This document shows, in pieces, positions 11,253 to 33,333 of a DNA stretch of 64,000 bases. Positions within the stretch are counted from its first letter, which is position 1, and every line of letters starts with the position of its first letter. The translations under genes and the position numbers were made by a program. The notes under the pieces were generated by a model that did not search any database, was not told the DNA's origin, and saw nothing but the letters and a program-made list of their open reading frames with translations. The DNA lies in assembly GCA_944324915.1 (NCBI GenBank), contig CALUYD010000005.1:1-64000 (forward strand). The letters are read 5' to 3'. The DNA comes from Candidatus Gastranaerophilales bacterium. GTDB lineage: Bacteria; Cyanobacteriota; Vampirovibrionia; Gastranaerophilales; Gastranaerophilaceae.

Positions 11253-12611
11253 ATGAAAAAGATACTAGCAGCTAGCATTTTAGCAATATTTTTTACAGGT
11301 TTTTTTGTTGAGCCGGCATGTGCAATTTTAGAAAAAAGTCCGTCTAAAGAAATATATCAACCGACAATTTTGGATTATATTAATTTTGATTGGTGGAAAA
11401 AACAAAATGACGAGCATTTGGAAAAATATATAGTTAGCGCTATTAACAATAACTTAGATATTAAAACAACAGCTCTAAAAGTAGAACAAGCAGGAATTAA
11501 TGTTATGGCAACAAGATCAAAATTGATGCCCAATGTTTCAATTGGAGCTAGTCCTGCGCTATTAAAAATGCCTGAAAGCACAAAATCGGAAGGTACATTC
11601 GCACTTCCTATATTAGCTTTTTGGGAGCTTGATTTATTTGGAAAAAATTGGGATAAAACAAAATCTGCCAAAAAATTATTAAAAGGTATTGAATTTGAAA
11701 CACAAGCAAGTAATATCTCGATTGTTTCTTTGGTTGCAAGCACATATTATAATATTGTTAAACTTGATAAACTGATTGAAATACAAAAAGATTTAGTTTC
11801 TGATAGAGAAAAAATTTATAATTTGATGAAAGTATCTAATGAAGAAGGTATTGTATCTACTGCTGATTTAATTCAAGCAGAAAAATCTTATTCTTTAGCT
11901 CAAAACGATTTAATTGATTACGAAAAAACAAGAAATTCAGCACTTAACGCTCTTGCTGTTTTAATTGGGGATAGTCCTAATAATATAGCTGAATATAAAA
12001 GAATTTCAATTGATAAATTAGGAATTGATTTTAATATTCCAAATTCTGTTTCATCTGAAATTATTGTAAATAGACCTGATTATAAATCTTTAGAATATCA
12101 ATTACAAGCAGCCGGGCTTGATGTAAGAGCTGCTAAAAAAGAATTTTTGCCTACAATTAATATTCTGGGAGCATTAGCTTTTATAGCAACATCAAGCGCA
12201 AGTGCTATGAATTGGGATAATGCATTAAGTTTATTAGCAGGAAGCGTAAATCTTCCCATATTTAGCGGTTTTGCAAGAGTTGCTAATTTAAAATTGAACA
12301 AAAATAAATACGAGCAACTTGTTCAACAATATCAAAAGACAAATTTAATAGCTATTCAAGAAATTAATGATTCATTGTATAACTATAAATCCGATAAAGA
12401 AAAACTTGATAATAATATAAAAGCTCTTAATATTCAAAAGAAAGATTATGAATATTCTAATTCAAAATACAAAGAAGGCGTTATTTCAAAATTGGATTTA
12501 TTACAACAAAAAGAAGCTCTTTTATATATGGAAAAAGTTATGGTGTCATCTAAAACCGATTGTTATTTAGATAAGATAAGTTTATATAAGACATCAGGAG
12601 CAAAAATATAG
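11253..12611 (+). CDS. TolC/NodT-family outer membrane efflux channel
   Basis: 452 residues from the ATG at 11253, which follows GAGGAG at an ideal distance; an upstream in-frame start at 11229 has no such site. A Sec signal peptide (MKKILAASILAIFFTGFFVEPACA) precedes two OEP repeats of about 200 residues with the typical long helices (IVSTADLIQAEKSYSLAQNDL... and VISKLDLLQQKEALLYMEK). It should complete the EmrAB pump across the outer membrane, which is direct evidence for a double-membrane envelope. It is divergent from the pump operon and shares its operator region. Confidence 0.9.
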   Translation: MKKILAASILAIFFTGFFVEPACAILEKSPSKEIYQPTILDYINFDWWKKQNDEHLEKYIVSAINNNLDIKTTALKVEQAGINVMATRSKLMPNVSIGASPALLKMPESTKSEGTFALPILAFWELDLFGKNWDKTKSAKKLLKGIEFETQASNISIVSLVASTYYNIVKLDKLIEIQKDLVSDREKIYNLMKVSNEEGIVSTADLIQAEKSYSLAQNDLIDYEKTRNSALNALAVLIGDSPNNIAEYKRISIDKLGIDFNIPNSVSSEIIVNRPDYKSLEYQLQAAGLDVRAAKKEFLPTINILGALAFIATSSASAMNWDNALSLLAGSVNLPIFSGFARVANLKLNKNKYEQLVQQYQKTNLIAIQEINDSLYNYKSDKEKLDNNIKALNIQKKDYEYSNSKYKEGVISKLDLLQQKEALLYMEKVMVSSKTDCYLDKISLYKTSGAKI

Positions 12612-12613
12612 TA

Positions 12614-12619
12614 TAATAT
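12614..12619 (+). promoter_or_regulatory. -10 box of the matrixin gene, leaderless
   Basis: TAATAT ends 6 nt before the ATG at 12626 (an overlapping TATAAT ends 8 nt before it). It sits right after the stop of the TolC-family gene and there is no Shine-Dalgarno. Confidence 0.45.
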
Positions 12620-12625
12620 TTAAAT

Positions 12626-13189
12626 ATGAAAATATTATTTAAATTTTTAATTTTGGTTTTGGCTATATCTTCTTTTGCGCTTGCAAGAGAAGATTATAGA
12701 ACATATTATTCTGAAGTTGATATTCCTGCTGTTTGGAGAAATCCTAAAGAAATCAAAGTTTGTATTATATATGATGAATTTAAAAATTATATTTTTACAA
12801 GAAGTTTTAAAGCGTGGGATGATGCACTTGGAAGCGATTTGAATTTTAAATATGTGAACAATCAAGCTGAAGCTGATATTGTTGCAAAATTTGTAAATAA
12901 ATTAGACGGAAATCAAGCGGGAATTACAAAAACGGCTTATGTTGAGCAAAACGGCAAAGTTTATCTTGCTAAAGCGGTTATTCAGATATCTAAAAATAGC
13001 CCCATAGGTTTTAGATTTAATGATGCGCAATTAAATAAAATCACTTTGCATGAAATAGGTCATGCAATAGGAATTTTAGGACATAGCGATAATATTAACG
13101 ATATTATGTATTTTTCAACCGCAAGTCAAAGATTAAGTACAATATCGTCTAATGATGTTGATACAGTAAAGAAAATATACGGTTTTTAG
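12626..13189 (+). CDS. Secreted matrixin-type zinc metalloprotease (M10-like)
   Basis: 187 residues. A signal peptide (MKILFKFLILVLAISSFALA) leads a single catalytic domain. The zinc site is HEIGHAIGILGHS: His142, catalytic Glu143, His146 and His153, followed by the Met-turn in NDIMYFS (Met161). The spacing to the third His is one residue longer than in animal MMPs, a variant I associate with cyanobacterial M10 proteins. There is no propeptide Cys switch. The last 4 nt overlap the end of the convergent membrane-protein gene. Confidence 0.88.
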   Translation: MKILFKFLILVLAISSFALAREDYRTYYSEVDIPAVWRNPKEIKVCIIYDEFKNYIFTRSFKAWDDALGSDLNFKYVNNQAEADIVAKFVNKLDGNQAGITKTAYVEQNGKVYLAKAVIQISKNSPIGFRFNDAQLNKITLHEIGHAIGILGHSDNINDIMYFSTASQRLSTISSNDVDTVKKIYGF

Positions 13190-15288
13190 ATATATTTTTC
13201 TGCTGCTAACAGTGCTTTATCTGCTTTTGTCATTAATGCATCATATTCACTTTGTTGCTCAGCGCTTAATGTTGTGCTTTTTGCGCTGAATTCACTTGAT
13301 GGAATATATGTCGCAGTATCAGGTGATTGCTGAGTTGTAGTTTTGTTTTCTGCATTATTATTTATAGTGTTATTATTTGTAGTTGAAGTTATAATTGTAT
13401 TGTTATTTGTTTTGTTGTTTAGTCTGTCTTTATTTGCAGGACTTAATATTTGTCCTTGGCTTGCAGGGCTTTTTGGAGCTTCAATATATTTTACTTCTTT
13501 GCCATCCAATAAATCCAATAATGCTTTAGGATTTTGTGCAATTGTTTGAGCTAATTTTGGATCAGTTTGCAATTTTTGTATTGCTTGAGGATTTTTTTCC
13601 ATTTTTTCCATTAGCTCGCCTTGTGTTATTCCAAGTTCCGGAATAACTTGTTTTTTATGTTCTTCAAGCGCTTTTAATTTTTCTGCCTCATCTTTGTTGT
13701 ATGGTTTTCCGAAGATTTTTTGAACTGCTTTTGATATTACTCCGGATATTTTTGGTGAAATTACAAACATTACTAATATAAATCTCATTGCGCCGCCTAA
13801 ATATCTTGGTAGAAATTTATTTGTTTGTGTAATTGTACCATTTTCAGCTATTGTAGGTAATCCCATACCAATTATTTTACCTATTAATTTTAAAGGATTA
13901 TTTCCTTTAAGATTTTTTAGAGTTGCAATACTGTATACTATGCTTGATGCTAAAGGCATTGAGAATACAAAACTACCAAGACCTGCTACAAATTCATCTG
14001 CTAAGGTTGCAACTTTTTGTTCTTTTGGTGCTTCTTGAACACTGTTAAATAAGCTCATAAGTGCAGGAATAGTAATAAATAAATTCATTGTAGATAAGTC
14101 TGCTACATGGTTTGAGATAGATTCTGTTGTATATAGTGGCGCTTTTTGAATGAATTTACCAAGACCTGTTTGAGCTAAAGTACCATCTGCCATATTAAAT
14201 TTAATTAAAGCATCACCAAGGTTGCCTTTTCCAAAAGGTTTCCAACCTTTAAATATTTTTGAACCTATTGAATCAATTATATTTACAGGAAACCAAGATG
14301 TGATTGGACTTTCTCTATTCATGGTGATATTTTTAAACGTTTCGTCATTATAGATGTCTTCTAGAACTTTGGTTAAGTTTTCTGCATAATCAGAGTTTGT
14401 TTCAAGACCTTTTTGTTTTGCTATTGCTTCTGTTAATTTTCTTGCAAATCCTGCTCTATCAGCATCTGTTTCTATTTCGGTAAAGTTTTTATAGAAATAG
14501 TCAAAATTATCAGAGCCTACTAGTTTTTCTAACATGCCTTTAAATGCTTTGTGGCTTTTTTCTAAGCCTTGCATTAGCTTGTCATAGTCTTCTTGGCTTA
14601 GCTTCTTTTTTATAGCTTCTAATCCTGCTAGATATTGAGGTGAGCTAGGCTCATCAATATATTTTAAAAATTCTAGTGCAGCTTTTTTACCGCCCAAACC
14701 TTTTTTTAGCATGCCAAAATTTTCGCTATGAAATTTCAAATGTAGCGCTTGAACAGTATCTGAAACATTGGCTGCAAATTGTCCTTTTGGGCCGAGAGTT
14801 CTTGCCATTTTTTGAGTGGGTTGAGCTTTTCTATTTTTAAAAGTATCAACTAAGTTATCTTTTAAATTTTTTGTAAAATTAAATTTGTCAAAAAAGCCGC
14901 TAATGCCCTGTTTTATTTTTCCTATGCCTGTGCTAATATTTCCAAAAAATTCACTATTTAAAATCTTTTTATCAATATTTTGGCTAAAAGCAATAATTTG
15001 TTTATTAAATTTATTACCTAATGCTGCAAAACTTAAGACTGTTCCTATCATTAATCCTGCTGAGATTAAAAACTTTTTAGGATCTTCTATACCAAAAGTA
15101 TTTTTTAAAATTCTAAAAACAAAGTTGTCTTTAACACGTTCTTGAGTATTTTTTGCAATTTCAACTGTATCTTGTTTTAATTTTTCTCTATCAACAGCGC
15201 CAAAATTCTCCTGCGATTGAACTCTTTGCTCTATCGCTGGAGAAAGTTGTTGATTATTTGATAAATTTCCAAAAGATACGTTGCTCAT
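13186..15288 (-). CDS. Large membrane protein of unknown function with Ser-Phe leader
   Basis: 700 residues, no family recognised. The N-terminus MSNVSFGNLSNNQ carries the Ser-Phe leader seen in four other proteins here. About four hydrophobic helices are visible: near 93-110 (FLISAGLMIGTVLSFAALG), near 400-420, near 435-460 and near 500-520. Residues 120-330 are soluble and helical. The C-terminus has an Asn/Thr-rich low-complexity stretch around residues 625-665. It is not a phage tape measure: no phage genes are nearby and the length-to-repeat pattern is wrong. Confidence 0.75.
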   Translation of the reverse strand: MSNVSFGNLSNNQQLSPAIEQRVQSQENFGAVDREKLKQDTVEIAKNTQERVKDNFVFRILKNTFGIEDPKKFLISAGLMIGTVLSFAALGNKFNKQIIAFSQNIDKKILNSEFFGNISTGIGKIKQGISGFFDKFNFTKNLKDNLVDTFKNRKAQPTQKMARTLGPKGQFAANVSDTVQALHLKFHSENFGMLKKGLGGKKAALEFLKYIDEPSSPQYLAGLEAIKKKLSQEDYDKLMQGLEKSHKAFKGMLEKLVGSDNFDYFYKNFTEIETDADRAGFARKLTEAIAKQKGLETNSDYAENLTKVLEDIYNDETFKNITMNRESPITSWFPVNIIDSIGSKIFKGWKPFGKGNLGDALIKFNMADGTLAQTGLGKFIQKAPLYTTESISNHVADLSTMNLFITIPALMSLFNSVQEAPKEQKVATLADEFVAGLGSFVFSMPLASSIVYSIATLKNLKGNNPLKLIGKIIGMGLPTIAENGTITQTNKFLPRYLGGAMRFILVMFVISPKISGVISKAVQKIFGKPYNKDEAEKLKALEEHKKQVIPELGITQGELMEKMEKNPQAIQKLQTDPKLAQTIAQNPKALLDLLDGKEVKYIEAPKSPASQGQILSPANKDRLNNKTNNNTIITSTTNNNTINNNAENKTTTQQSPDTATYIPSSEFSAKSTTLSAEQQSEYDALMTKADKALLAAEKYI

Positions 15289-17306: not shown

Positions 17307-18764
17307 ATGACATTTTGGCGTTTATTTGATAAAAATATTGCAAAAATTGCTCCTGTGGCTTTTATAGTTTTGACTTTAGTGTTTTCTTTTTTAAGGATTC
17401 CTTTTTATGATGAAGCGCACGCATATATCATTTCTCAATTTGATTTATCTGAGATATTTTATCTGACTCGAATTGAGGGTCATCCGATATTATGGTATTT
17501 AATTTTAAAGCCTTTCAATAATATCAGTTTTTATCCTTATTCGCTAGCTTTAATTAATTGGATTTTTTCTTCAATTATGATTTTTGTTTTTTGGAAAAAA
17601 GCTCCTTTTAATAATTTGATTAAATTTTTACTTACTTTTTCATATCCTTTTTTTCAATATTTTGGAGTTATTTCAAGACCTTACACTTTAGCGGTTTTGG
17701 TTATTTTTTTGATAGTGTCTTTTTATAAAGATTCTCTTAAAAAACCGATTTTATATTCAATATTGTTGGTTTTGTGCGCTAATATAAGCGTTGTATCTTT
17801 ATTTATATCAGGTGCTTTTTTTCTTTTATTTTTATATGAGATTTATAAAACAAAGTGTTTATTAAAAAAGCAATTAATATCTATTTGTTTGATATTTTTT
17901 ATAGGTTTTATTTTATTTATATCTCAGTTTTTATTTGTCGAAGCACCTAAAATGCAGACAGATAATGCACATTTGATTTTTTTAAAAAATCTTTTAAGCT
18001 ATACTATTGCTCCTTTTTTGGGTATTCAAAGTAAAAATATTAATCAAATTTTGCTTCAATTTGTGAGCGCATTTAGCGTATTTTATTTTTCATATATTTT
18101 ATTTAAAAAAAGTAAAAAAGCGTTTTTTATTACGTATTGTTCAATTATTCCAATGATAATAATGTTTTTATTTATATATGTAGGTAATTTTTGGCATTAT
18201 TATTTTATTTTAATTGCTTTTTTGTGTGGATTTTGGATTGATTGGGATAAATTTAAGAATGATAAAATTCTAAATTGTCTTTTAATTGGGTTGATTTTAT
18301 TGAATATGTCATCTTATTCTTTAACTAAAAACGGTAAAAATGAAACAAATCAGCCTATTTTTTATAAAAAAGCGTATGAAATTATATCTAAAAATCCTAA
18401 GTATAAAAATTCAAAGTTATTTTGTTTTAATTATTATTCATATCTTGCCCCCGGGTTATTGGTATATTTAAAAAAAGACAATATTTTCTTTTTTGATAAT
18501 CATAATAATAATTTATTGAGTTTTGAATTTGTTAAAAATCTTCAAAATGTTGATTATAAAACAATTGAGCCTAGCGAATTTATTAAATATTTAGATAAAA
18601 ATAAAGATAATTATTTATTTGCAACATCAAATAAAATAGCAGATTATAACAATTTTAGCTTTGGAGATGATAAATATAAAATAAATCTCAATTTAGTTGA
18701 ATATCATCCTGAATTATATTTGCTTATTTATAAGATTACATATTCTGAAATTAATAAAAGTTAA
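17307..18764 (+). CDS. Multi-pass membrane glycosyltransferase (GT-C fold), paralogue 1
   Basis: 485 residues with about 10 membrane helices and a soluble C-terminal part of about 130 residues. The first loop has IPFYDEAHAYIISQFDLSEI, whose Asp-Glu fits the catalytic acidic pair of GT-C enzymes using polyprenyl-phosphate sugars. A paralogue of nearly equal length lies at 20114, sharing blocks such as SEIFYLTRIEGH and WYLILKPF. uppS, which makes the polyprenyl carrier, lies between them. The sugar and acceptor are unknown. Confidence 0.75.
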   Translation: MTFWRLFDKNIAKIAPVAFIVLTLVFSFLRIPFYDEAHAYIISQFDLSEIFYLTRIEGHPILWYLILKPFNNISFYPYSLALINWIFSSIMIFVFWKKAPFNNLIKFLLTFSYPFFQYFGVISRPYTLAVLVIFLIVSFYKDSLKKPILYSILLVLCANISVVSLFISGAFFLLFLYEIYKTKCLLKKQLISICLIFFIGFILFISQFLFVEAPKMQTDNAHLIFLKNLLSYTIAPFLGIQSKNINQILLQFVSAFSVFYFSYILFKKSKKAFFITYCSIIPMIIMFLFIYVGNFWHYYFILIAFLCGFWIDWDKFKNDKILNCLLIGLILLNMSSYSLTKNGKNETNQPIFYKKAYEIISKNPKYKNSKLFCFNYYSYLAPGLLVYLKKDNIFFFDNHNNNLLSFEFVKNLQNVDYKTIEPSEFIKYLDKNKDNYLFATSNKIADYNNFSFGDDKYKINLNLVEYHPELYLLIYKITYSEINKS

Positions 18765-19549: not shown

Positions 19550-20142
19550 TGTTAAAAATTACTCTTGCGACAGGAAACAGCCATAAAGTTGATGAAATAA
19601 ATTTAATTGCTAAAGATTATAATATTGAATTTGTTTTGCCAAAAGGCGAATTTAATCCTGTTGAAGATAGTGATAATTTTTTAGGTAACGCTTATTGTAA
19701 AGCAAAATGTGCTTTAAAATCTCAAAGTACGGATTTATATTTAGCGGATGACTCCGGTCTTTGTGTTGATGCGCTTAATGGAGCTCCTGGGATATATAGT
19801 GCAAGATATGCACCAAGCGCAAAAGAAAGAATTAATAAGCTCTTAAATGTAATGAAAAATAAAGAAAACAGAAGCGCAAAGTTTGTATGCGCTATGGTTC
19901 TTGTAAATAAAAATGCTGATATATTGTTTCAAACACAACAAGAATGTCTTGGCTCAATTTTGAAAGAAGAAAAAGGACAAAATGGTTTTGGATATGACCC
20001 TATTTTTTATGTAACATCGCAAGGACAAGGCATGGCTGAATTGTCGGATGTTCAAAAGTCTAAGGTATCTCATAGAGCGAAAGCGCTAAATAAGGTTTTA
20101 GAATGGATTAAAAATGAATACTCTAAAAACCAAGATAAATGA
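19549..20142 (+). CDS. rdgB: RdgB/HAM1 family dITP/XTP pyrophosphatase
   Basis: 197 residues, normal for the family. It hydrolyses non-canonical purine nucleoside triphosphates to monophosphates. Signature blocks are TLATGNSHKVDEI at the N-terminus, LADDSGLCVDALNGAPGIYSARY with the catalytic Asp, GFGYDPIF and SHRAKAL. It overlaps uppS by 1 nt at its start, and its last 29 nt overlap the next glycosyltransferase gene in another frame, which suggests a single operon. Confidence 0.95.
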   Translation: MLKITLATGNSHKVDEINLIAKDYNIEFVLPKGEFNPVEDSDNFLGNAYCKAKCALKSQSTDLYLADDSGLCVDALNGAPGIYSARYAPSAKERINKLLNVMKNKENRSAKFVCAMVLVNKNADILFQTQQECLGSILKEEKGQNGFGYDPIFYVTSQGQGMAELSDVQKSKVSHRAKALNKVLEWIKNEYSKNQDK

Positions 20143-21574
20143 TTATTTATCAAGAAATTGTGTATTGATTTTTGCATTTATTACATTGTTGATAATTTTG
20201 TTTCATACTCCTTTTTGGGATGAAACCCATGCTTTTAGTATTGCAAGGTTAAAGTTATCTGAGATATTTTATCTAACAAGAATAGAAGGTCATACTTTTT
20301 TATGGTATTTGATTTTAAAGCCTTTTAGTTCGCTTAATTTATATCCTTATTCGATGTCATTTTTAAATTGGTTTTTTTGCGTTTTAGCAATTTTTGTTTT
20401 ATGGAAAAAAGCGCCCTTTAGTCCTTTAATAAAAACATTAATTACATTTTCAACTCCTTTTTTATATTATTTTGCGCCCATTGCAAGATGTTATTCTATT
20501 GGAATTTTGTTTTTATTTTTGGCTTGTGCTTATTATAGAAAAAGATTTAAAAAACCTTATTTATTTGCTTTGCTTTTGTCTTTGGCTATGAATACTTCAG
20601 TTATGGCTATGATTGGAGCTTTTTATCTTATTTTAATTTATATTTTTGATTTAATTTTAAAATTAAAACATAGGACTTTTGAACTTAAGAAATTTTATGG
20701 AGTATTATTCATATTTTTAGCTTGTGCGCTATTGATTTTAGCGCAATTTGTCAATTTAAGAAGTATTCCTAAAGATGATTATTTAATGGTTTTAAGTTCT
20801 GTTTTTGGTTGTGTTATTTTTCCTCAAGCGCTGAATTTATTTCCATTAATTTTACATACAGTTACAACAGTTGCTTTTTATTATTTTATTTTTGTAATTT
20901 TTAAAAATACAAAACGTGGTTTTTTCTTTATTTCAATGACTTATTTAACTTTATTTTATGTATTTTTGATGGTTTATAGCGGTAATCATTGGAATCATTA
21001 TTTTTATTTTGTTTATTTTATTATTTTCTTTTGGATTTTTGGAAGAAAAATTTTAAAAATTAAATTTGCAAAGGGTTTATTTATATTGATTTTGGTTCTT
21101 TTTCTTTTTCCTAATGCTGTTTTAGAGGATGGAAAAATGAATTATATTTATTCATCTAAAAGTAAACTTATTGCAAATCAGATAATTAAAAATAATGAAC
21201 TTAAAGAGGCTAAATTGTTCGCTCTTGATTGGTGGAGTGATATTTACCCCGGGGCTTTAGTTTATTTAGAAAAAAATAATATTTTTCTTTATGATCTACA
21301 CAATAGAAAAAGAAATTCTTTTGAAAGCATTAAAGACACTTTTTTAATTGAGCATGAATTAATTGATTTTGATGAATTTTCCAATTATTTGGATAATAAT
21401 TCGTATTTGCTTGTTATTGATTCGCCTACAAAATTGAAATTAAAAAATATTACAGCGATACCAAAAGAAAACGGAGATTTTATTTTTAAAACAAAAAATA
21501 AAAGCTATTATTTGAAATTGGTTGATTTTTCAAAAGATACGAGAATGTGTATATTTAAAATTATCGAAATATAA
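20114..21574 (+). CDS. Multi-pass membrane glycosyltransferase (GT-C fold), paralogue 2
   Basis: 486 residues, same architecture as the protein at 17307. The first loop reads TPFWDETHAFSIARLKLSEIF, retaining the acidic pair. About 10 hydrophobic helices are followed by a soluble tail with SDIYPGALVYLEKNNIFLYD, matching the paralogue's APGLLVYLKKDNIFFFD. The start codon lies inside rdgB. The two copies have diverged throughout, so the duplication is old. Substrates are unknown. Confidence 0.75.
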   Translation: MNTLKTKINDYLSRNCVLIFAFITLLIILFHTPFWDETHAFSIARLKLSEIFYLTRIEGHTFLWYLILKPFSSLNLYPYSMSFLNWFFCVLAIFVLWKKAPFSPLIKTLITFSTPFLYYFAPIARCYSIGILFLFLACAYYRKRFKKPYLFALLLSLAMNTSVMAMIGAFYLILIYIFDLILKLKHRTFELKKFYGVLFIFLACALLILAQFVNLRSIPKDDYLMVLSSVFGCVIFPQALNLFPLILHTVTTVAFYYFIFVIFKNTKRGFFFISMTYLTLFYVFLMVYSGNHWNHYFYFVYFIIFFWIFGRKILKIKFAKGLFILILVLFLFPNAVLEDGKMNYIYSSKSKLIANQIIKNNELKEAKLFALDWWSDIYPGALVYLEKNNIFLYDLHNRKRNSFESIKDTFLIEHELIDFDEFSNYLDNNSYLLVIDSPTKLKLKNITAIPKENGDFIFKTKNKSYYLKLVDFSKDTRMCIFKIIEI

Positions 21575-27918: not shown

Positions 27919-28791
27919 TTATTCAAAATGGTCAAAACTTTTATATTCAATTTTTTCATTGTCGATATATACGCTACTGCCTTTTTTGCATGTGCCGATT
28001 TTAATAAGTCCTTCTATATTATTGAAATCATCTTCATCTATACAAATAACGAGAGAATAATCTTCGCCTCCATACAACACAAAATCTTTGTTTTTGGTTT
28101 TATGAGGAATTTTATCATATTCAATATCAATTCTTACATTGCTTTTTTGTGAAATTTGAGCTAAACAATCAACAAGTCCGTCTGATGAATCCATCATTGC
28201 ATAAGGTTTTTTTGCTGTTTTTGCAATAAGAGAAGAAATTCTTGGGTATAATTTTGGATTTTTGTGCTGGTTTATAAAGTAGTTATCATAAATCCCTGAA
28301 AATAAATCTTCTAAACCTTGAGCGCTTGAGCCAAATTCTCCAACGCAGGCTACGATATAATTTTCTTTGGCATTTTTTCTTGATGATGGATTTAAATCTT
28401 TATAGCTTCCAAAAATGGTTACTGAAATTACAATTTTATCTGATTTTGTTAAATCTCCGCCTATGATTTTTATATCAAATTCATTTTCGATTGAATTTAT
28501 TCCTTTATAAAATTCATCAACAAAAGTTTCATCTAAACATCCGCTTAAATTTATTGTTGCATATATTGGCTTTGCGCCTGACGCTAAGATGTCTGAAATA
28601 TTTACAAGCAAAGATTTTCTTGCTATTTCATAAGGATTCATAAATTGCATCGAAAAATGAACATCTTCAATTAGGCTATCTGATGAGATAGCGAGCTTAT
28701 ACTCATCTAAATAAGCGCAATCATCCCCTAAATAGTTAGGATTTTTCAGAGTGTTAGATATTATTTTTAAAAATTTTAATTCTTTATTCAT
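27919..28791 (-). CDS. thiL: Thiamine-monophosphate kinase ThiL
   Basis: 290 residues. It phosphorylates thiamine monophosphate to thiamine diphosphate. The AIR synthase/ThiL fold shows GDDCAYLDE near the start, SSDSLIEDVHFS, VNISDILASGAKP, the GGDLTKSD block and MDSSDGLVDCL. The C-terminus is slightly shorter than in E. coli (325). It overlaps aroQ by 8 nt and is the last gene of the minus-strand run. Confidence 0.93.
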   Translation of the reverse strand: MNKELKFLKIISNTLKNPNYLGDDCAYLDEYKLAISSDSLIEDVHFSMQFMNPYEIARKSLLVNISDILASGAKPIYATINLSGCLDETFVDEFYKGINSIENEFDIKIIGGDLTKSDKIVISVTIFGSYKDLNPSSRKNAKENYIVACVGEFGSSAQGLEDLFSGIYDNYFINQHKNPKLYPRISSLIAKTAKKPYAMMDSSDGLVDCLAQISQKSNVRIDIEYDKIPHKTKNKDFVLYGGEDYSLVICIDEDDFNNIEGLIKIGTCKKGSSVYIDNEKIEYKSFDHFE

Positions 28792-29221
28792 TTATTTTGT
28801 TATATAGTCCTAATAGCGCAAGTTTATAGCTTTCTTTTCCAAAGCCTTTAACTACGCCAATACAAGCTGATGAGGTGTATGAGATGTGTCTATATTCTTC
28901 TCTTGCGTTGGGGTTGCTGATGTGTACTTCTACTGCTTTTATTCCCACTCCTTTAATAGCGTCAGCTATTGCAATGCTTGTGTGAGTGTATGCAGCAGGA
29001 TTTATTATCATACCGTCAAAACCTTTTGAATTTTGAATTTTATCAACAATTTCGCCTTCGTGATTTGATTGGAAAAATTCAAAATTAATATTTTCATCAA
29101 TGGTTTTTGAATATTCTATAAGCTCTTTGTTTATATCATCAAGAGTAGTTTTTCCATATATTTCCGGCTCTCTTGTACCTAAAAGATTGATATTTGGACC
29201 ATTTATAACTAATATTTTCAT
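28784..29221 (-). CDS. aroQ: Type II 3-dehydroquinate dehydratase
   Basis: 145 residues, standard for the dodecameric type II enzyme of the shikimate pathway. The motif VINGPNINLLGTREPEIYG holds the catalytic Arg17 and Tyr22; SNHEGEIVDKIQ, INPAAYTHTS and VEVHISNP are the other conserved blocks. It has its own GAGGA site and lies 11 nt after ribD. Confidence 0.96.
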   Translation of the reverse strand: MKILVINGPNINLLGTREPEIYGKTTLDDINKELIEYSKTIDENINFEFFQSNHEGEIVDKIQNSKGFDGMIINPAAYTHTSIAIADAIKGVGIKAVEVHISNPNAREEYRHISYTSSACIGVVKGFGKESYKLALLGLYNKINE

Positions 29222-29232
29222 ATTTCCTCACT

Positions 29233-30285
29233 TTAGTATGTTTTTATTTTACCATTAATCAAGAAATTATCTTCAAATTGTTTTATTTTGACATCTTTTA
29301 ATTTTATTGAATTTTCTATTTCTTCAATATTTAAACCTTTTATAAAATCTAATCCTCCGCCAAATATTTTAGGCGCTATAAAATGATTAATCTCATCAAC
29401 TTCATTATTTTTTATAAGTTCAGAATTAAAGCCTGAACCTGCTTCTGTCATAATTGAATAAATATTCATTTTGTATAATTCTTTAAATAAATTATCAAAA
29501 CTTCCATCAAAAGAAATTTGCTCTATATGTTTTGGTAAATCGATTTTTGAATTGTTTATCAAAATTACTTTAACATCGTCATTAAAAACATTGTAATTAA
29601 GAGGAATTTTGTTGTTGGGATCAAAAATTATTCTTATCGGAGATTTTTTATTTTTTAATCTGACATTTAATTTTGGATTATCAGCTAAGATTGTTCCTGT
29701 TGCAGACATTATTGCTTGATATTCACTTCTTAATTTTTGACAATATAATCTTGCTTTTTCATTTGTTATCCATTTTGATTTTCCGTTATCAAGTGCAATT
29801 TTTCCATCAAGAGTTGAAGCTATTTTAAGCATTATATAAGGTTTTTTGGTTAGAGTATTTTTAAAAAAGACCTTGTTTAAGTCTTTTGCTTCTTTTTCTA
29901 AAACTCCCAAAACTGTTTCAATGCCTGCATTTTGTAATTTTTCTAAACCGCCTGTTGCTTGTTTATTTAAATCAAGCGTTGCAATTATTGCTTTTTTAAA
30001 CCCTGATTTTATAATTAAATCCGCACAAGGTGGGGTTTTCCCCCAATGAGAGCAAGGTTCAAGATTTACAATAATGGTTTTTCCTTTGGTGTTGCCGTTG
30101 GCATTTTTTATTGCATTAACTTCAGCGTGCGCTTGTCCGTATTTTTCATGATAGCCACATGAAATTATTTTATTTTCTTTTTCATCATAAACAATAGCAC
30201 CTACATAAGGGTTTGGAATGTTTTTGCCTTGTGCTTTTTTTGCTAAATTAATACATTTTTGCATTAATTTTTTATACTTGTTCAT
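29233..30285 (-). CDS. ribD: Bifunctional riboflavin deaminase-reductase RibD
   Basis: 350 residues. The N-terminal deaminase has the zinc motif HAE (53-55) and PCSHWGKTPPC (77-87); the C-terminal reductase (about 148-350) has MLKIASTLDGKIAL and TEAGSGFNSEL. It carries out the second and third steps of riboflavin synthesis. Its start overlaps the CpaF-like gene by 14 nt. Other rib genes are not in the window. Confidence 0.95.
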   Translation of the reverse strand: MNKYKKLMQKCINLAKKAQGKNIPNPYVGAIVYDEKENKIISCGYHEKYGQAHAEVNAIKNANGNTKGKTIIVNLEPCSHWGKTPPCADLIIKSGFKKAIIATLDLNKQATGGLEKLQNAGIETVLGVLEKEAKDLNKVFFKNTLTKKPYIMLKIASTLDGKIALDNGKSKWITNEKARLYCQKLRSEYQAIMSATGTILADNPKLNVRLKNKKSPIRIIFDPNNKIPLNYNVFNDDVKVILINNSKIDLPKHIEQISFDGSFDNLFKELYKMNIYSIMTEAGSGFNSELIKNNEVDEINHFIAPKIFGGGLDFIKGLNIEEIENSIKLKDVKIKQFEDNFLINGKIKTY

Positions 30286-31672
30286 TTTGACTTTCTTGTA
30301 TATCTTCTAATTTAATTTCAAAATCGCCTTGCATTTGCGCATTTTTCTTTAATTCATCAAATTTTTCTTGCGCTTTTTGCATTAATTCTTCTTCGTCTAT
30401 TTCTTTTTTAATTTCTTGTTGTTCTTCTGTTTCTATATTTTCATCATTTGGAGTAGGCAAATCTTTTTTGAATTTTTTCAAAATATCAATATTTGTGCCT
30501 TTTTTTGCAAATTGAGCATCAATATCAATACCTTTATGATATGTGTGCTTGTATTCAATATTGAAAATATTATCTCCAATAGGCAGTGAATTATTTTTAA
30601 TATCTTCATAAAATAATGGAGTTATTCCTTGTGATTTATGTTGTTTTAGATAATCCAAAGTAAAAATATCTTGAATAAATTCATCTTCTTTTGATAGATT
30701 TATTTCTTTGATTGATGAAATTTTTCTTCTTCCTAATTCATCTTTTTGAGCTTCAATAATAATATCAAAATTGCTTAAAATTATTGCTTTTGCTTCATGT
30801 AATGCTAAATTATTAGAGTTATTCATCAATATTTGACTTAGTTTTTTAATCGCTTCATCTGAATTATTTGCACATAAAGTTAATATTAAGCCTTTATATT
30901 GAGAATTAATTTTTTCTATTGTTTTATTGATTAAATCTTCATTTTCAGTATTTATTAGTAATTTATCAGGGTTAGAGTTAACTATTGAACTTAAAATCAA
31001 ATCCATTGTTTTTGGATTATCTATTTTTGAAAAATCATAATTTGTGCAGTTTTGAGATGTTATTTTAAATTCGTTTTCGCTATCTATTATAATAGCTCTG
31101 TTATTTGTTGGAATTTTTTTTGCTAAAGCGCTTAAAAGTGTTGTTTTGAGTGTATTTTTGCTTCCGATAATTAGAATATTTTTCTTTATAGCGCAAAATG
31201 CTTCTAATATTAAAGCTATTTCTTTTGATATTGAATGTTCTATTTGCAAGGTTTGAATTGTTGCATGTTTATCTTTGTAGCATTTTATAAATAAACTTGC
31301 AACGTTAGATAATGGAGGTAATGTCGCTAAAACATTTACGCCTGTTTTATAGTTGAATTTAAAAAACGGCGCTTGTTCATCAAGCTCCACACCTTCATTT
31401 TGGGCAATTTTTTTGATTAAATTTTCAAGTTGAACATTATCTCTAAATGTTGATGTGCTTTTTGTGGTTTTTTCTCTGCGCTCAAGATAGATATTTTTTG
31501 CTCCGCTTACAAAAATACTATTTAAATCATCATTAGCTAACAATGTATCTATTGCACCTAGCGTATCTAGTTGTGCTTCTTGTTCTGTTTTATAGTATTT
31601 TGGCTGTTCTTCTTTTTTTGTTTCTTTAATTTGTTGTTTTTGAACCGTATTTAATCTATCTTTTAGTGACAA
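30272..31672 (-). CDS. CpaF/TadA-like secretion ATPase with degenerate active site
   Basis: 466 residues. The layout matches CpaF: an N-terminal domain (about 30-130), then a RecA-like core starting NILIIGSKNTLKTTLLSALA. The Walker A, normally GxxGxGKTT, is G170-SKNTL-K176-TT, so the glycine before Lys is Leu. The usual GEVRG box is LLINTENED, and the His-box HANS is CANNS. ATP turnover is therefore doubtful. Residues 405-466 are an acidic Glu/Lys/Gln-rich tail. It is 1 nt after a CpaE-like gene, but no Tad pilus genes are present. Confidence 0.7.
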   Translation of the reverse strand: MSLKDRLNTVQKQQIKETKKEEQPKYYKTEQEAQLDTLGAIDTLLANDDLNSIFVSGAKNIYLERREKTTKSTSTFRDNVQLENLIKKIAQNEGVELDEQAPFFKFNYKTGVNVLATLPPLSNVASLFIKCYKDKHATIQTLQIEHSISKEIALILEAFCAIKKNILIIGSKNTLKTTLLSALAKKIPTNNRAIIIDSENEFKITSQNCTNYDFSKIDNPKTMDLILSSIVNSNPDKLLINTENEDLINKTIEKINSQYKGLILTLCANNSDEAIKKLSQILMNNSNNLALHEAKAIILSNFDIIIEAQKDELGRRKISSIKEINLSKEDEFIQDIFTLDYLKQHKSQGITPLFYEDIKNNSLPIGDNIFNIEYKHTYHKGIDIDAQFAKKGTNIDILKKFKKDLPTPNDENIETEEQQEIKKEIDEEELMQKAQEKFDELKKNAQMQGDFEIKLEDIQESQNEQV

Positions 31673-31673
31673 T

Positions 31674-32846
31674 TTATTCTTCTCCCATTCTTTTTAGCAA
31701 ATTGAAAACATTATAGTCAAAATTTGCTTTTGAGTTTATTTTATCAAAATCGATTTGTAAAATATCTTTTGCAATTTTTGAATATGATTTTGCGATGTTT
31801 GAGTTTGGATTTACTTCATCTACATTTTTTTCTTGATTTATTGCATCAATTAAAGTCAAATAATTATTTGGTATTGTTGCAAAAATTTCTTTCTTAAGAT
31901 TATTTTCTATATCAGATAAAGTAAGTTCTTGATTTTCAATAAATCTATTTACTATTAGCTTTATTTTATCATTATTACATCCGATTTTGTCAAATAATTC
32001 AAAAGATTTATAGGTATTTTTAACAGATGTTTGATTAGCTAAAATTAACAAAAGTATTAAATTTGAGTTATTTAAAACAGAGATGTTGCATTCATTTGTC
32101 GTGCTTGATGTATCTATTAAAATATAGTCAAAAATATTTTTAAGAGAGTTTATTATTTTTGTAATTGTCTGCATTGTTAAATTGCTTTGCGCAATCGTTT
32201 CTTCGTTTGCTTCAATAGTGTAAATTTCGCTATTTTGATATTTTCCGATTAGTGATAAAAATGATTGTTCAGCTAAATTTTGCATGTTTGATAAAATATA
32301 ATCTAAACCATATTTTTGTTTAATATTAAGATAAGAATTTATATTTTCGCTGCTATATGTTAAATCTAAAATACAAACTCTATCGTCTGTTTGTTTGTTG
32401 ATTTCCCAAGCAAGATTTGTAATAAGAGAGGTTTTTCCTATGCCGCCTTTATTTGTATAAACTGTAATTACTTTACCTTTTTTTTCTTTGAATGTATTTA
32501 TTTTTTTGATTGACATTTCAAGAATGCTCGGCAAAACGGGTTTTAAAAGAAAGTCTACTACTCCTTTTTTTAGAGTTTCATTTACTAAACTTGAATTAAT
32601 TTCATAACTTAAAGCGATAAAGTTAAGATGTTCAAATTGATTTTTAAGAAACGAGATTTTTTCTAAAATTTCATTTGAATTTTTTGAATCAATATCAAAA
32701 ATAATTAAATTAATTTCGTTATAATTTATATCATCAGAATGAAAATCATCTAATGAATTAACAAGCTCAATATCTTGAATATTTTTGAGGCAATTTATTG
32801 TAGATTCTCTTGATTGTGGATTTTTATCAATTATTAGTGTTTTCAT
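31674..32846 (-). CDS. CpaE-like protein: receiver-like domain plus MinD/ParA ATPase
   Basis: 390 residues. Residues 1-118 form a receiver-like domain keeping the acidic pocket Asp7, the phosphoacceptor position Asp51 (LIIFDID) and Lys102 (LLKP). Residues 125-360 form a MinD/ParA ATPase with the deviant Walker A NKGGIGKTS (132-140) and the switch FDYILIDTSS. CpaE proteins localise Tad pilus machinery at the pole. The partner here is a degenerate CpaF, so the pair may do something else. It overlaps cinA by 20 nt. Confidence 0.75.
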   Translation of the reverse strand: MKTLIIDKNPQSRESTINCLKNIQDIELVNSLDDFHSDDINYNEINLIIFDIDSKNSNEILEKISFLKNQFEHLNFIALSYEINSSLVNETLKKGVVDFLLKPVLPSILEMSIKKINTFKEKKGKVITVYTNKGGIGKTSLITNLAWEINKQTDDRVCILDLTYSSENINSYLNIKQKYGLDYILSNMQNLAEQSFLSLIGKYQNSEIYTIEANEETIAQSNLTMQTITKIINSLKNIFDYILIDTSSTTNECNISVLNNSNLILLLILANQTSVKNTYKSFELFDKIGCNNDKIKLIVNRFIENQELTLSDIENNLKKEIFATIPNNYLTLIDAINQEKNVDEVNPNSNIAKSYSKIAKDILQIDFDKINSKANFDYNVFNLLKRMGEE

Positions 32847-33333
32847 TAATACCCCTTATAAAATCTAAAAATTCCTTTAGTGCTTCTTCTACTATATCCA
32901 CTTTTATTTTGTAGCGGTCATTTGTTTGAGCTTCTTTTGAAATATATTTAATTACTTTTATGTTGTTTTTATAGCCAACAGAAATATAAACAAGTCCTAT
33001 TGGTTTTTCTTTACTTCCTCCGCTTGGACCTAAAATTCCTGTTGTTGCAATAGAACAATCTGCATAGTTCAATAATCCCTTTGACATCTCAAAGGCAGTT
33101 TGCTCGCTAACTGCGCCATATTTATCTAAAGTTTCTTTTTTAACATTTAAAAATTTTGTTTTAGCTTCATTAGAATATGTTACAAAGTTTTGTTTTATAA
33201 ATTCGCTTGAGCCTGCAATATCTGTTAAATATGAGCTTATTAAGCCACCTGTGCAACTTTCGGCACTTGATAGAGTTAATTTATTTTTAGTTAAAATATT
33301 TTTAATTTCTGTTAATAATTGATATTTTTCCAT
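32827..33333 (-). CDS. pncC: CinA C-terminal domain protein / nicotinamide-nucleotide amidase PncC
   Basis: 168 residues, the stand-alone form. It would deamidate NMN to NaMN in pyridine nucleotide salvage. Signature blocks are LSSAESCTGGLISSYLTDIAGSS with the catalytic Ser, VSEQTAFEMSKG and ATTGILGPSGGSKEKPIGLVYI. It sits in the minus-strand run between the secreted protein at 33338 and the CpaE-like gene, without functional logic that I can see. Confidence 0.9.
   Translation of the reverse strand: MEKYQLLTEIKNILTKNKLTLSSAESCTGGLISSYLTDIAGSSEFIKQNFVTYSNEAKTKFLNVKKETLDKYGAVSEQTAFEMSKGLLNYADCSIATTGILGPSGGSKEKPIGLVYISVGYKNNIKVIKYISKEAQTNDRYKIKVDIVEEALKEFLDFIRGINENTNN

Follow-up and report, generated by a model that had tools for sequence, protein, structure and literature searches.

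A 64,000-nucleotide stretch of DNA from a Candidatus Gastranaerophilales bacterium (contig CALUYD010000005.1 of assembly GCA_944324915.1, positions 1 to 64,000 of the forward strand; hereafter the window) encodes an adjacent pair of proteins belonging to the CpaE/TadZ and CpaF/TadA families of the Tad (type IVc) pilus. We observed that this pair is the remnant of a Tad operon that eroded in place at its ancestral locus, as shown by synteny with related genera, and that its CpaF, judged from sequence, keeps the fold of its family without the residues of ATP hydrolysis. We consider it reasonably probable that the pair has been turned into a positioning module that operates without a pilus, with the hydrolysis-dead CpaF as a scaffold. 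The genome (1.8 Mb in 36 contigs, 99.98% complete) has as its named near relatives mostly Candidatus Gastranaerophilales metagenome-assembled genomes, several of them gut derived. Genera are labeled g1 (the genus of the window), g3, g52, etc., and genomes and loci are given as G and L numbers.

Active site of CpaF and domains of CpaE

The first-pass annotation of the window had picked out two open reading frames (ORFs) as a CpaE-CpaF pair without Tad genes nearby; both were found at the positions it gave, and the annotated part of the window (about 25 to 38 kb) contains no Tad genes around them. The window CpaF matches the TadA/CpaF/VirB11 models (NCBIfam TIGR03819, E = 2.5 × 10−25, under the curated cutoff) and aligns with the solved CpaF 8rkd at an E value of 1.2 × 10−26. 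The best structural match of its AlphaFold2 model (predicted local distance difference test [pLDDT] score of 75.5) is CpaF 8rjf (E = 3.3 × 10−26), so that both fold and family sequence place it in the CpaF/TadA family. In the alignment to the solved CpaF, GGTGSGKTT is replaced by GSKNTLKTT, GEVRG by NTENE, and TLHAN by TLCAN; Leu thus stands for the Gly before the Walker A Lys, while Lys176-Thr177-Thr178 is retained. For comparison, a study of the Caulobacter crescentus CpaF assigns catalytic roles to K287, E312, E357, R359, and H382 (PMC11300603).

A search of 58 genomes with the window CpaF recovered it in all 28 genomes of the genus, its own included, and CpaE adjoins it in every one. All four motor features (a GxxxxGK[ST] Walker A, the Walker B Glu, the GExRG box, and the His-box) are altered in 28/28: 26 genomes have Leu before the Walker A Lys, one has Phe, and one has Gln, and the catalytic Glu, GExRG, and His are each found in none, as is the three-helix N-terminal domain 1 (NTD1). 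The losses of the Walker A Gly, GEVRG, and His-box that had been read off the window alone are thus borne out by alignment and recur throughout the genus, and because the same changes are seen in all 28 genomes, they are more than chance. As Lys-Thr-Thr is invariant in the genus (28/28), the P-loop is better described as altered than as lost. The CpaF frames, of 400 to 500 amino acids (aa), are open in all 28 genomes (the reading of G026 has a stop at the match edge), and K176, T177, T178, D197, and E201 are invariant in 19 genus rows that are 34 to 84% identical to the window protein. Ratios of nonsynonymous to synonymous divergence (dN/dS) by NG86 from the same 10 pairs, in which the proportion of synonymous differences (pS) is 0.53 to 0.71 and dS is near saturation in some, are 0.08 to 0.18 for cpaF and 0.09 to 0.21 for cpaE, and cpaF is therefore no decaying pseudogene. 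We also observed a segment past the ATPase core (residues about 368 to 378, the NIFNIEYKHTY region) that is strongly conserved in the genus as IFDxxYKHTY; a segment of this type is also present at the C terminus of a g3 CpaF (L088) and not in the Tad-linked CpaF rows displayed.

CpaE combines a receiver-like domain with a MinD/ParA ATPase domain that has a P-loop and, with cpaF adjacent in 28/28 genus loci, has the makeup of a CpaE/TadZ protein. Its AlphaFold2 model (pLDDT, 84.4) matches ParA/MinD chains, with 3ea0 and MinD as the best PDB matches; the Eubacterium rectale structure 3fkq, which we take to be a TadZ, ranks 42nd among the structural matches. We rejected the candidate identification of this protein as the MinD of the genome, the true MinD being encoded separately on contig 12 (C12:37329). 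The residues reported for CpaE by the first-pass annotation (Asp7, Asp51, Lys102, and an intact KGGIGKTS) are all present, along with Ser80, but the receiver is atypical because Lys8 stands for the usual second acidic residue. D7 and K102 are invariant across the 19 genus rows, where D51 is at least 90% conserved. N382 and G388 of the short C-terminal segment are also invariant in the genus, and a helix is modeled at residues 379 to 388 with low pLDDT; by analogy with the C. crescentus CpaE (PMC13170226), it is a candidate amphipathic membrane-targeting element.

Dismantling of the Tad system across the family

Elsewhere in the order and class, other families have the pair as part of a cpaB-(rcpA)-cpaE-cpaF-tadB-tadC operon (6 loci, with no rcpA found in the single class-level one), and seven genera of the window's own family retain the Tad operon (13 loci read, one on a contig that begins inside rcpA). 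In g52 and g53 (four loci), the whole operon lies between cinA and ribD-aroQ-thiL, the same flanks as those of the window pair; the order there is cinA-[cpaB-rcpA]-cpaE-cpaF-[tadB-tadC]-ribD, versus cinA-cpaE-cpaF-ribD in g1 and in the g3 genome G091. The CpaF of G091 is partly altered (GAKASGKTT, EECKG, TIYAD), and a second g3 genome, G029, has cinA-cpaE-ribD with no cpaF in between. In g42, ribD also follows tadC, and other genera retain the pair among different neighbors.

In a tree of RadA, a single gene obtained from 27 of 30 genomes, g1, g3, g52, g53, and g42 form a clade (support, 100/100). On this tree the Tad-less genera require 4 changes, of which starred branches make at least 3 unavoidable; grouping these genera in one clade is rejected (P = 2.8 × 10−7). 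Since operon order and flanks are shared, we read these changes as losses, and Tad loss was therefore probably repeated in the family, with the RadA tree and synteny as its only clear pointers. The CpaF tree, from which g25 and g57 were left out, conflicts with this in joining all its Tad-less rows (support, 98), for which we offer the attraction of long CpaF branches as an explanation; it does not reject a g1-plus-g3 grouping (P = 0.104). The CpaE trees favor neither view: a first one separated the window genus, on a long branch, from g3, and a second, with two long groups left out, brought g1, g3, and g55 together (support, 63).

The check for Tad genes elsewhere in the genome, for which a full Tad locus had been named beforehand as the adverse result, found no such locus. 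The genome encodes PilB, PilC, one secretin, and two PilT-like proteins. Its T2SSF protein is a single polypeptide with two domains beside PilB, with no TadB or TadC; the one secretin lies beside PilB/PilC, with no separate Tad secretin; and there is no TadE. Tad genes at another site in this genome were rejected on these grounds, as no complete Tad system was found via T2SSF, secretin, and TadE (no search was aimed at Flp pilin or prepilin peptidase). Across the genus, 25 of the 28 genomes have a T2SSF protein, a single secretin is present in 24 and none in the other 4, and TadE is absent from all 28, own genome included, while it is present in 17 of the 58 genomes searched. CpaB is absent from the 10 genus loci read, no genome-wide search for it having been made. 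Separately, a 465-aa PilB-like protein on contig 10 of the window genome (L007:10234-11631) has the P-loop GASLSGKTH and no GEIRD box; its gene directly follows genes resembling, by eye, a CheY-like regulator and a sensor kinase (11647-12009 and 12017-14053).

A family search with the CpaF alignment A1 gave matches in 99 of 191 genomes, of which the loci of 82 were read. Of the resulting 106 CpaF loci, 19 have tadB/tadC and 87 lack them, the latter made up of 28 from the window genus and 59 from elsewhere. All 19 Tad-linked CpaFs have an intact Walker A, its Lys, the catalytic Glu, GExRG, and the His-box His, versus 34, 76, 3, 0, and 0, respectively, of the 87 Tad-less ones; in g30 (0/7) and g34 (0/2) even the P-loop Lys is gone. 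Relatives with intact motifs had been named in advance as the result that would speak against a repurposed pair, but because fully intact motifs occur only where the Tad genes persist (19/19), these relatives account for the case and do not speak against it.

CpaE is present in 171 of the 191 genomes (E up to 1 × 10−25), about 75 of which have no CpaF match by A1. Among 20 such loci read, a protein of 98 to 145 aa with only an N-terminal motif and NTD1 lies 3' of CpaE in g8, g37, and g54 (5 loci), one of 126 to 167 aa with the motif and a piece of the P-loop in g6, g36, and g49 (4 loci), and a 315-aa CpaF in g34 (1 locus). No recognizable CpaF remnant lies 3' of CpaE in the other 10 (g3, g4, g40, g41, g46, g50, g55, and g56), an absence less sure in one g46 and one g41 locus because their contigs end 574 and 702 bp past CpaE. 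As NTD1 is absent from the window genus and NTD2 plus the C-terminal domain (CTD) from the g8/g37/g54 remnants, no CpaF domain is universal. On the CpaE side, all 86 Tad-less, all 9 remnant-linked, and all 10 solo rows have the P-loop core GKT; the strict KGGxGK[TS] is found in 75, 9, and 10 of them, respectively, and in 18/19 Tad-linked rows. As a side observation, the CpaF in the pair of the three g35 genomes G068, G103, and G129 is unusually long (about 580 to 600 aa), and these genomes have no MinD over the family cutoff and no T2SSF protein, absences that are uncertain at 83 to 92% completeness.

The sole feature common to all CpaF derivatives read beside CpaE in the family is the N-terminal motif. 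Within residues 1 to 30, the pattern hydrophobic-x-x-R-[LFIY] is carried by 18 of the 19 Tad-linked CpaFs, 84 of the 87 Tad-less ones, and all 10 remnants; among internal 20-residue windows, it occurs in 12% (Tad-linked) and 4% (Tad-less). The misses are a class-level f8 row, a g7 ORF with an over-long start whose aligned N terminus reads KLSSRF (allowed for above), and both g25 proteins (L137 and L138), which have GKTT and the Walker B Glu in genomes with no CpaE match. Outside the order, the motif is looser (MFLRNRL, MSLREQL, LFGRK), and we claim no generality for it there. Direct contact between the two proteins is supported by five CpaE-CpaF fusion ORFs of 759 to 826 aa in other Cyanobacteriota (L292, L298, L301, L304, and L306), each joining a CpaE-like ParA domain to a CpaF with GExRG and the His-box. 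For C. crescentus, six CpaE dimers have been modeled around a CpaF hexamer (PMC13170226).

Proposed role of the pair and its alternatives

As synteny shows, cpaB, rcpA, tadB, and tadC were lost around cpaE-cpaF at the original locus. In the scenario that we favor, the pair would go on serving as a hub in the absence of a pilus, with CpaE as its ATP-driven part, which may dimerize on ATP and attach to the membrane through its C-terminal helix. CpaF, proposed as a passive partner for its lack of hydrolysis residues and predicted, as our best inference, to be a scaffold, would attach to CpaE as a ring or adaptor, perhaps via the conserved N-terminal motif, and may still bind nucleotide through Lys-Thr-Thr. 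The client positioned may be something other than a type IV pilus. Retention of the pair by selection after Tad loss suggests a second job unrelated to the pilus. A wider version, to which we give slightly less than even credence, is that in Gastranaerophilales a pilus-independent role of CpaE-CpaF predates Tad loss, that at each loss this role maintained selection on CpaE, and that CpaF turned in parallel in several lineages into a pseudo-ATPase adaptor, down to tethers of about 100 residues sharing only the putative CpaE-binding motif.

Several observations weigh against this picture. The model of the CpaE C-terminal helix is of low confidence, and the tail differs in most of the other Tad-less genera. 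The tie between motif and CpaE seen in g25 comes from one genus (2 genomes), and the motif pattern was widened after the sequences had been seen, its first version, with a fixed S/T first residue, having been too narrow. A comparison of partnered and solo CpaEs for a site lost along with CpaF found weak differences in 3 of 125 conserved columns and no convincing contact. Eight genera have CpaE with no recognizable adjacent CpaF in at least one genome read, so that CpaF is dispensable in places. Finally, the invariance of Lys-Thr-Thr could mean that CpaF still uses nucleotide. Taken further, CpaF would remain ATP dependent or nucleotide sensing, with xLKTT binding nucleotide and the Asp common at the former Glu position giving slow turnover or a switch; the Leu before the Lys, kept in 26/28, and the invariant K176, T177, T178, D197, and E201 would fit. 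We regard this as unlikely, given the loss of Glu, GExRG, and His in all 28 genus CpaFs, and since g30 and g34 lack the P-loop Lys, nucleotide binding is not the general function across the family.

The scaffold reading also has to be set against others that concern the client or the input. The pair might serve as a borrowed localization module for the retained type IVa pilus or a related secretion system, a reading for which the pil genes of the window genome and the T2SSF protein in most genus genomes speak. We find this distinctly unlikely: pair and pil genes are unlinked in the window genome (contig 5 versus contig 10), the three g35 genomes have the pair and no T2SSF protein, and 12 of 15 g50 and g56 genomes retain CpaE without any T2SSF protein, which disfavors the type IV pilus as an obligate client. 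Very unlikely is a phosphorylation-controlled signaling module, in which the CpaE receiver would be the target of a histidine kinase and CpaF a mere anchor. The conservation of Asp7, Asp51, and Lys102 in the genus speaks for it, but the triad (an acidic residue at position 7, Asp51, and Lys102) is complete in only 37/86 Tad-less, 4/9 remnant-linked, and 6/10 solo CpaEs (17/19 when Tad linked), Lys8 replaces the second acidic residue, and no kinase gene lies beside the pair in the annotated part of the window. Of the first-pass proposal that the pair had become a localization or signaling module with CpaF as a scaffold, a Tad leftover with a noncatalytic CpaF has strong support (genus-wide fixation, purifying selection, the ancestral locus, and no Tad locus found elsewhere), and the signaling part is weaker. 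We consider it highly improbable that the pair is drifting to loss and is kept only by its place in an operon overlapping cinA and ribD. The graded shrinkage of CpaF in the family (intact, degenerate, 98 to 167 aa, none) and long branches in both trees would suit such decay; the low dN/dS of cpaF, open frames with invariant residues in all 28 genomes, conservation of the derived residues themselves, and retention of the pair among other neighbors elsewhere argue against it.

Features of the window and comparison with known systems

The coordinates of the pair, its motifs, and its neighbors are listed in the table. The start of cpaE overlaps cinA by 20 nt, and the 3' end of cpaF overlaps the start of ribD by 14 nt; a promoter and terminator scan gave signal no higher than in shuffled sequences. 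Elsewhere in the window, two similar, co-oriented ORFs lying slightly apart (17307-18764, 485 aa, and 20114-21574, 486 aa) are rich in membrane segments.

Table. Features of the cpaE-cpaF locus (window positions)
Feature	Position	Strand	Remarks
cpaE-like gene	31674..32846	-	390 aa; receiver-like domain, MinD/ParA ATPase domain, short C-terminal helix
CpaE receiver-like domain	32493..32846	-	Residues 1-118 (Asp7, Lys8, Asp51, Ser80, Lys102); Pfam PF00072 below cutoff
CpaE deviant Walker A	32427..32450	-	KGGIGKTS, residues 133-140
CpaE C-terminal segment	31677..31718	-	Residues 377-390 (DYNVFNLLKRMGEE); candidate amphipathic membrane-targeting helix
cpaF-like gene	30272..31672	-	466 aa; TTG start 1 nt past cpaE stop
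CpaF N-terminal motif	31652..31672	-	(M)SLKDRL, residues 1-7; hydrophobic-x-x-R-hydrophobic pattern
CpaF altered Walker A	31139..31165	-	GSKNTLKTT, residues 170-178; genus: Leu 26/28, K-T-T 28/28
CpaF former Walker B/GExRG box	30938..30952	-	Now NTENE, residues 241-245; genus: Glu 0/28, GExRG 0/28
CpaF former His-box position	30872..30874	-	Now Cys267 (TLCAN); genus: His 0/28
cinA-type gene	32827..33333	-	PF02464, E = 4.9 × 10−44; upstream flank of ancestral Tad locus (synteny)
ribD	29233..30285	-	PF01872, PF00383, PF01220; downstream flank of ancestral Tad locus (synteny)
aroQ	28784-29221		Next after ribD
Gene which we take to be thiL	27919-28791		Next after aroQ

We found no literature on Tad in Gastranaerophilales or on Tad pili of Melainabacteria, nor on degenerate-Walker pseudo-ATPases of type IV pili, in a search whose coverage left out subscription papers and preprints. 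The family offers a graded natural dismantling of a nanomachine, from an intact motor through a broken active site and fragments to none, with the positioning ATPase kept; the localization half of Tad would thus be separable from its motor half. A pilus-free function is predicted for TadZ/CpaE, with the short N-terminal CpaF motif as a testable contact. For annotation, a CpaE-CpaF pair alone should not be equated with a pilus.

The window pair resembles Tad CpaE/TadZ and CpaF/TadA in gene order, folds, the deviant Walker A of CpaE, the NTD2 and CTD of CpaF, the N-terminal motif, and the orthologous locus in g52/g53. It differs in that its locus lacks the TadB/TadC platform, secretin, and CpaB, its genome lacks TadE, and its CpaF lacks the catalytic residues and the three-helix NTD1. 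CpaE shares its P-loop signature, fold, and possibly a C-terminal membrane helix with the MinD/FleN/ParA positioning ATPases, but has an added receiver-like domain and a CpaF partner. The CpaF model has the fold of the VirB11/FlaI/PilT secretion ATPases; unlike in these, the Walker A Gly, Walker B Glu, GExRG, and His are replaced, and no pilus or secretion platform is adjacent. The natural CpaE-CpaF fusions of other Cyanobacteriota unite the same two parts in one chain, but their CpaF part retains GExRG and the His-box.

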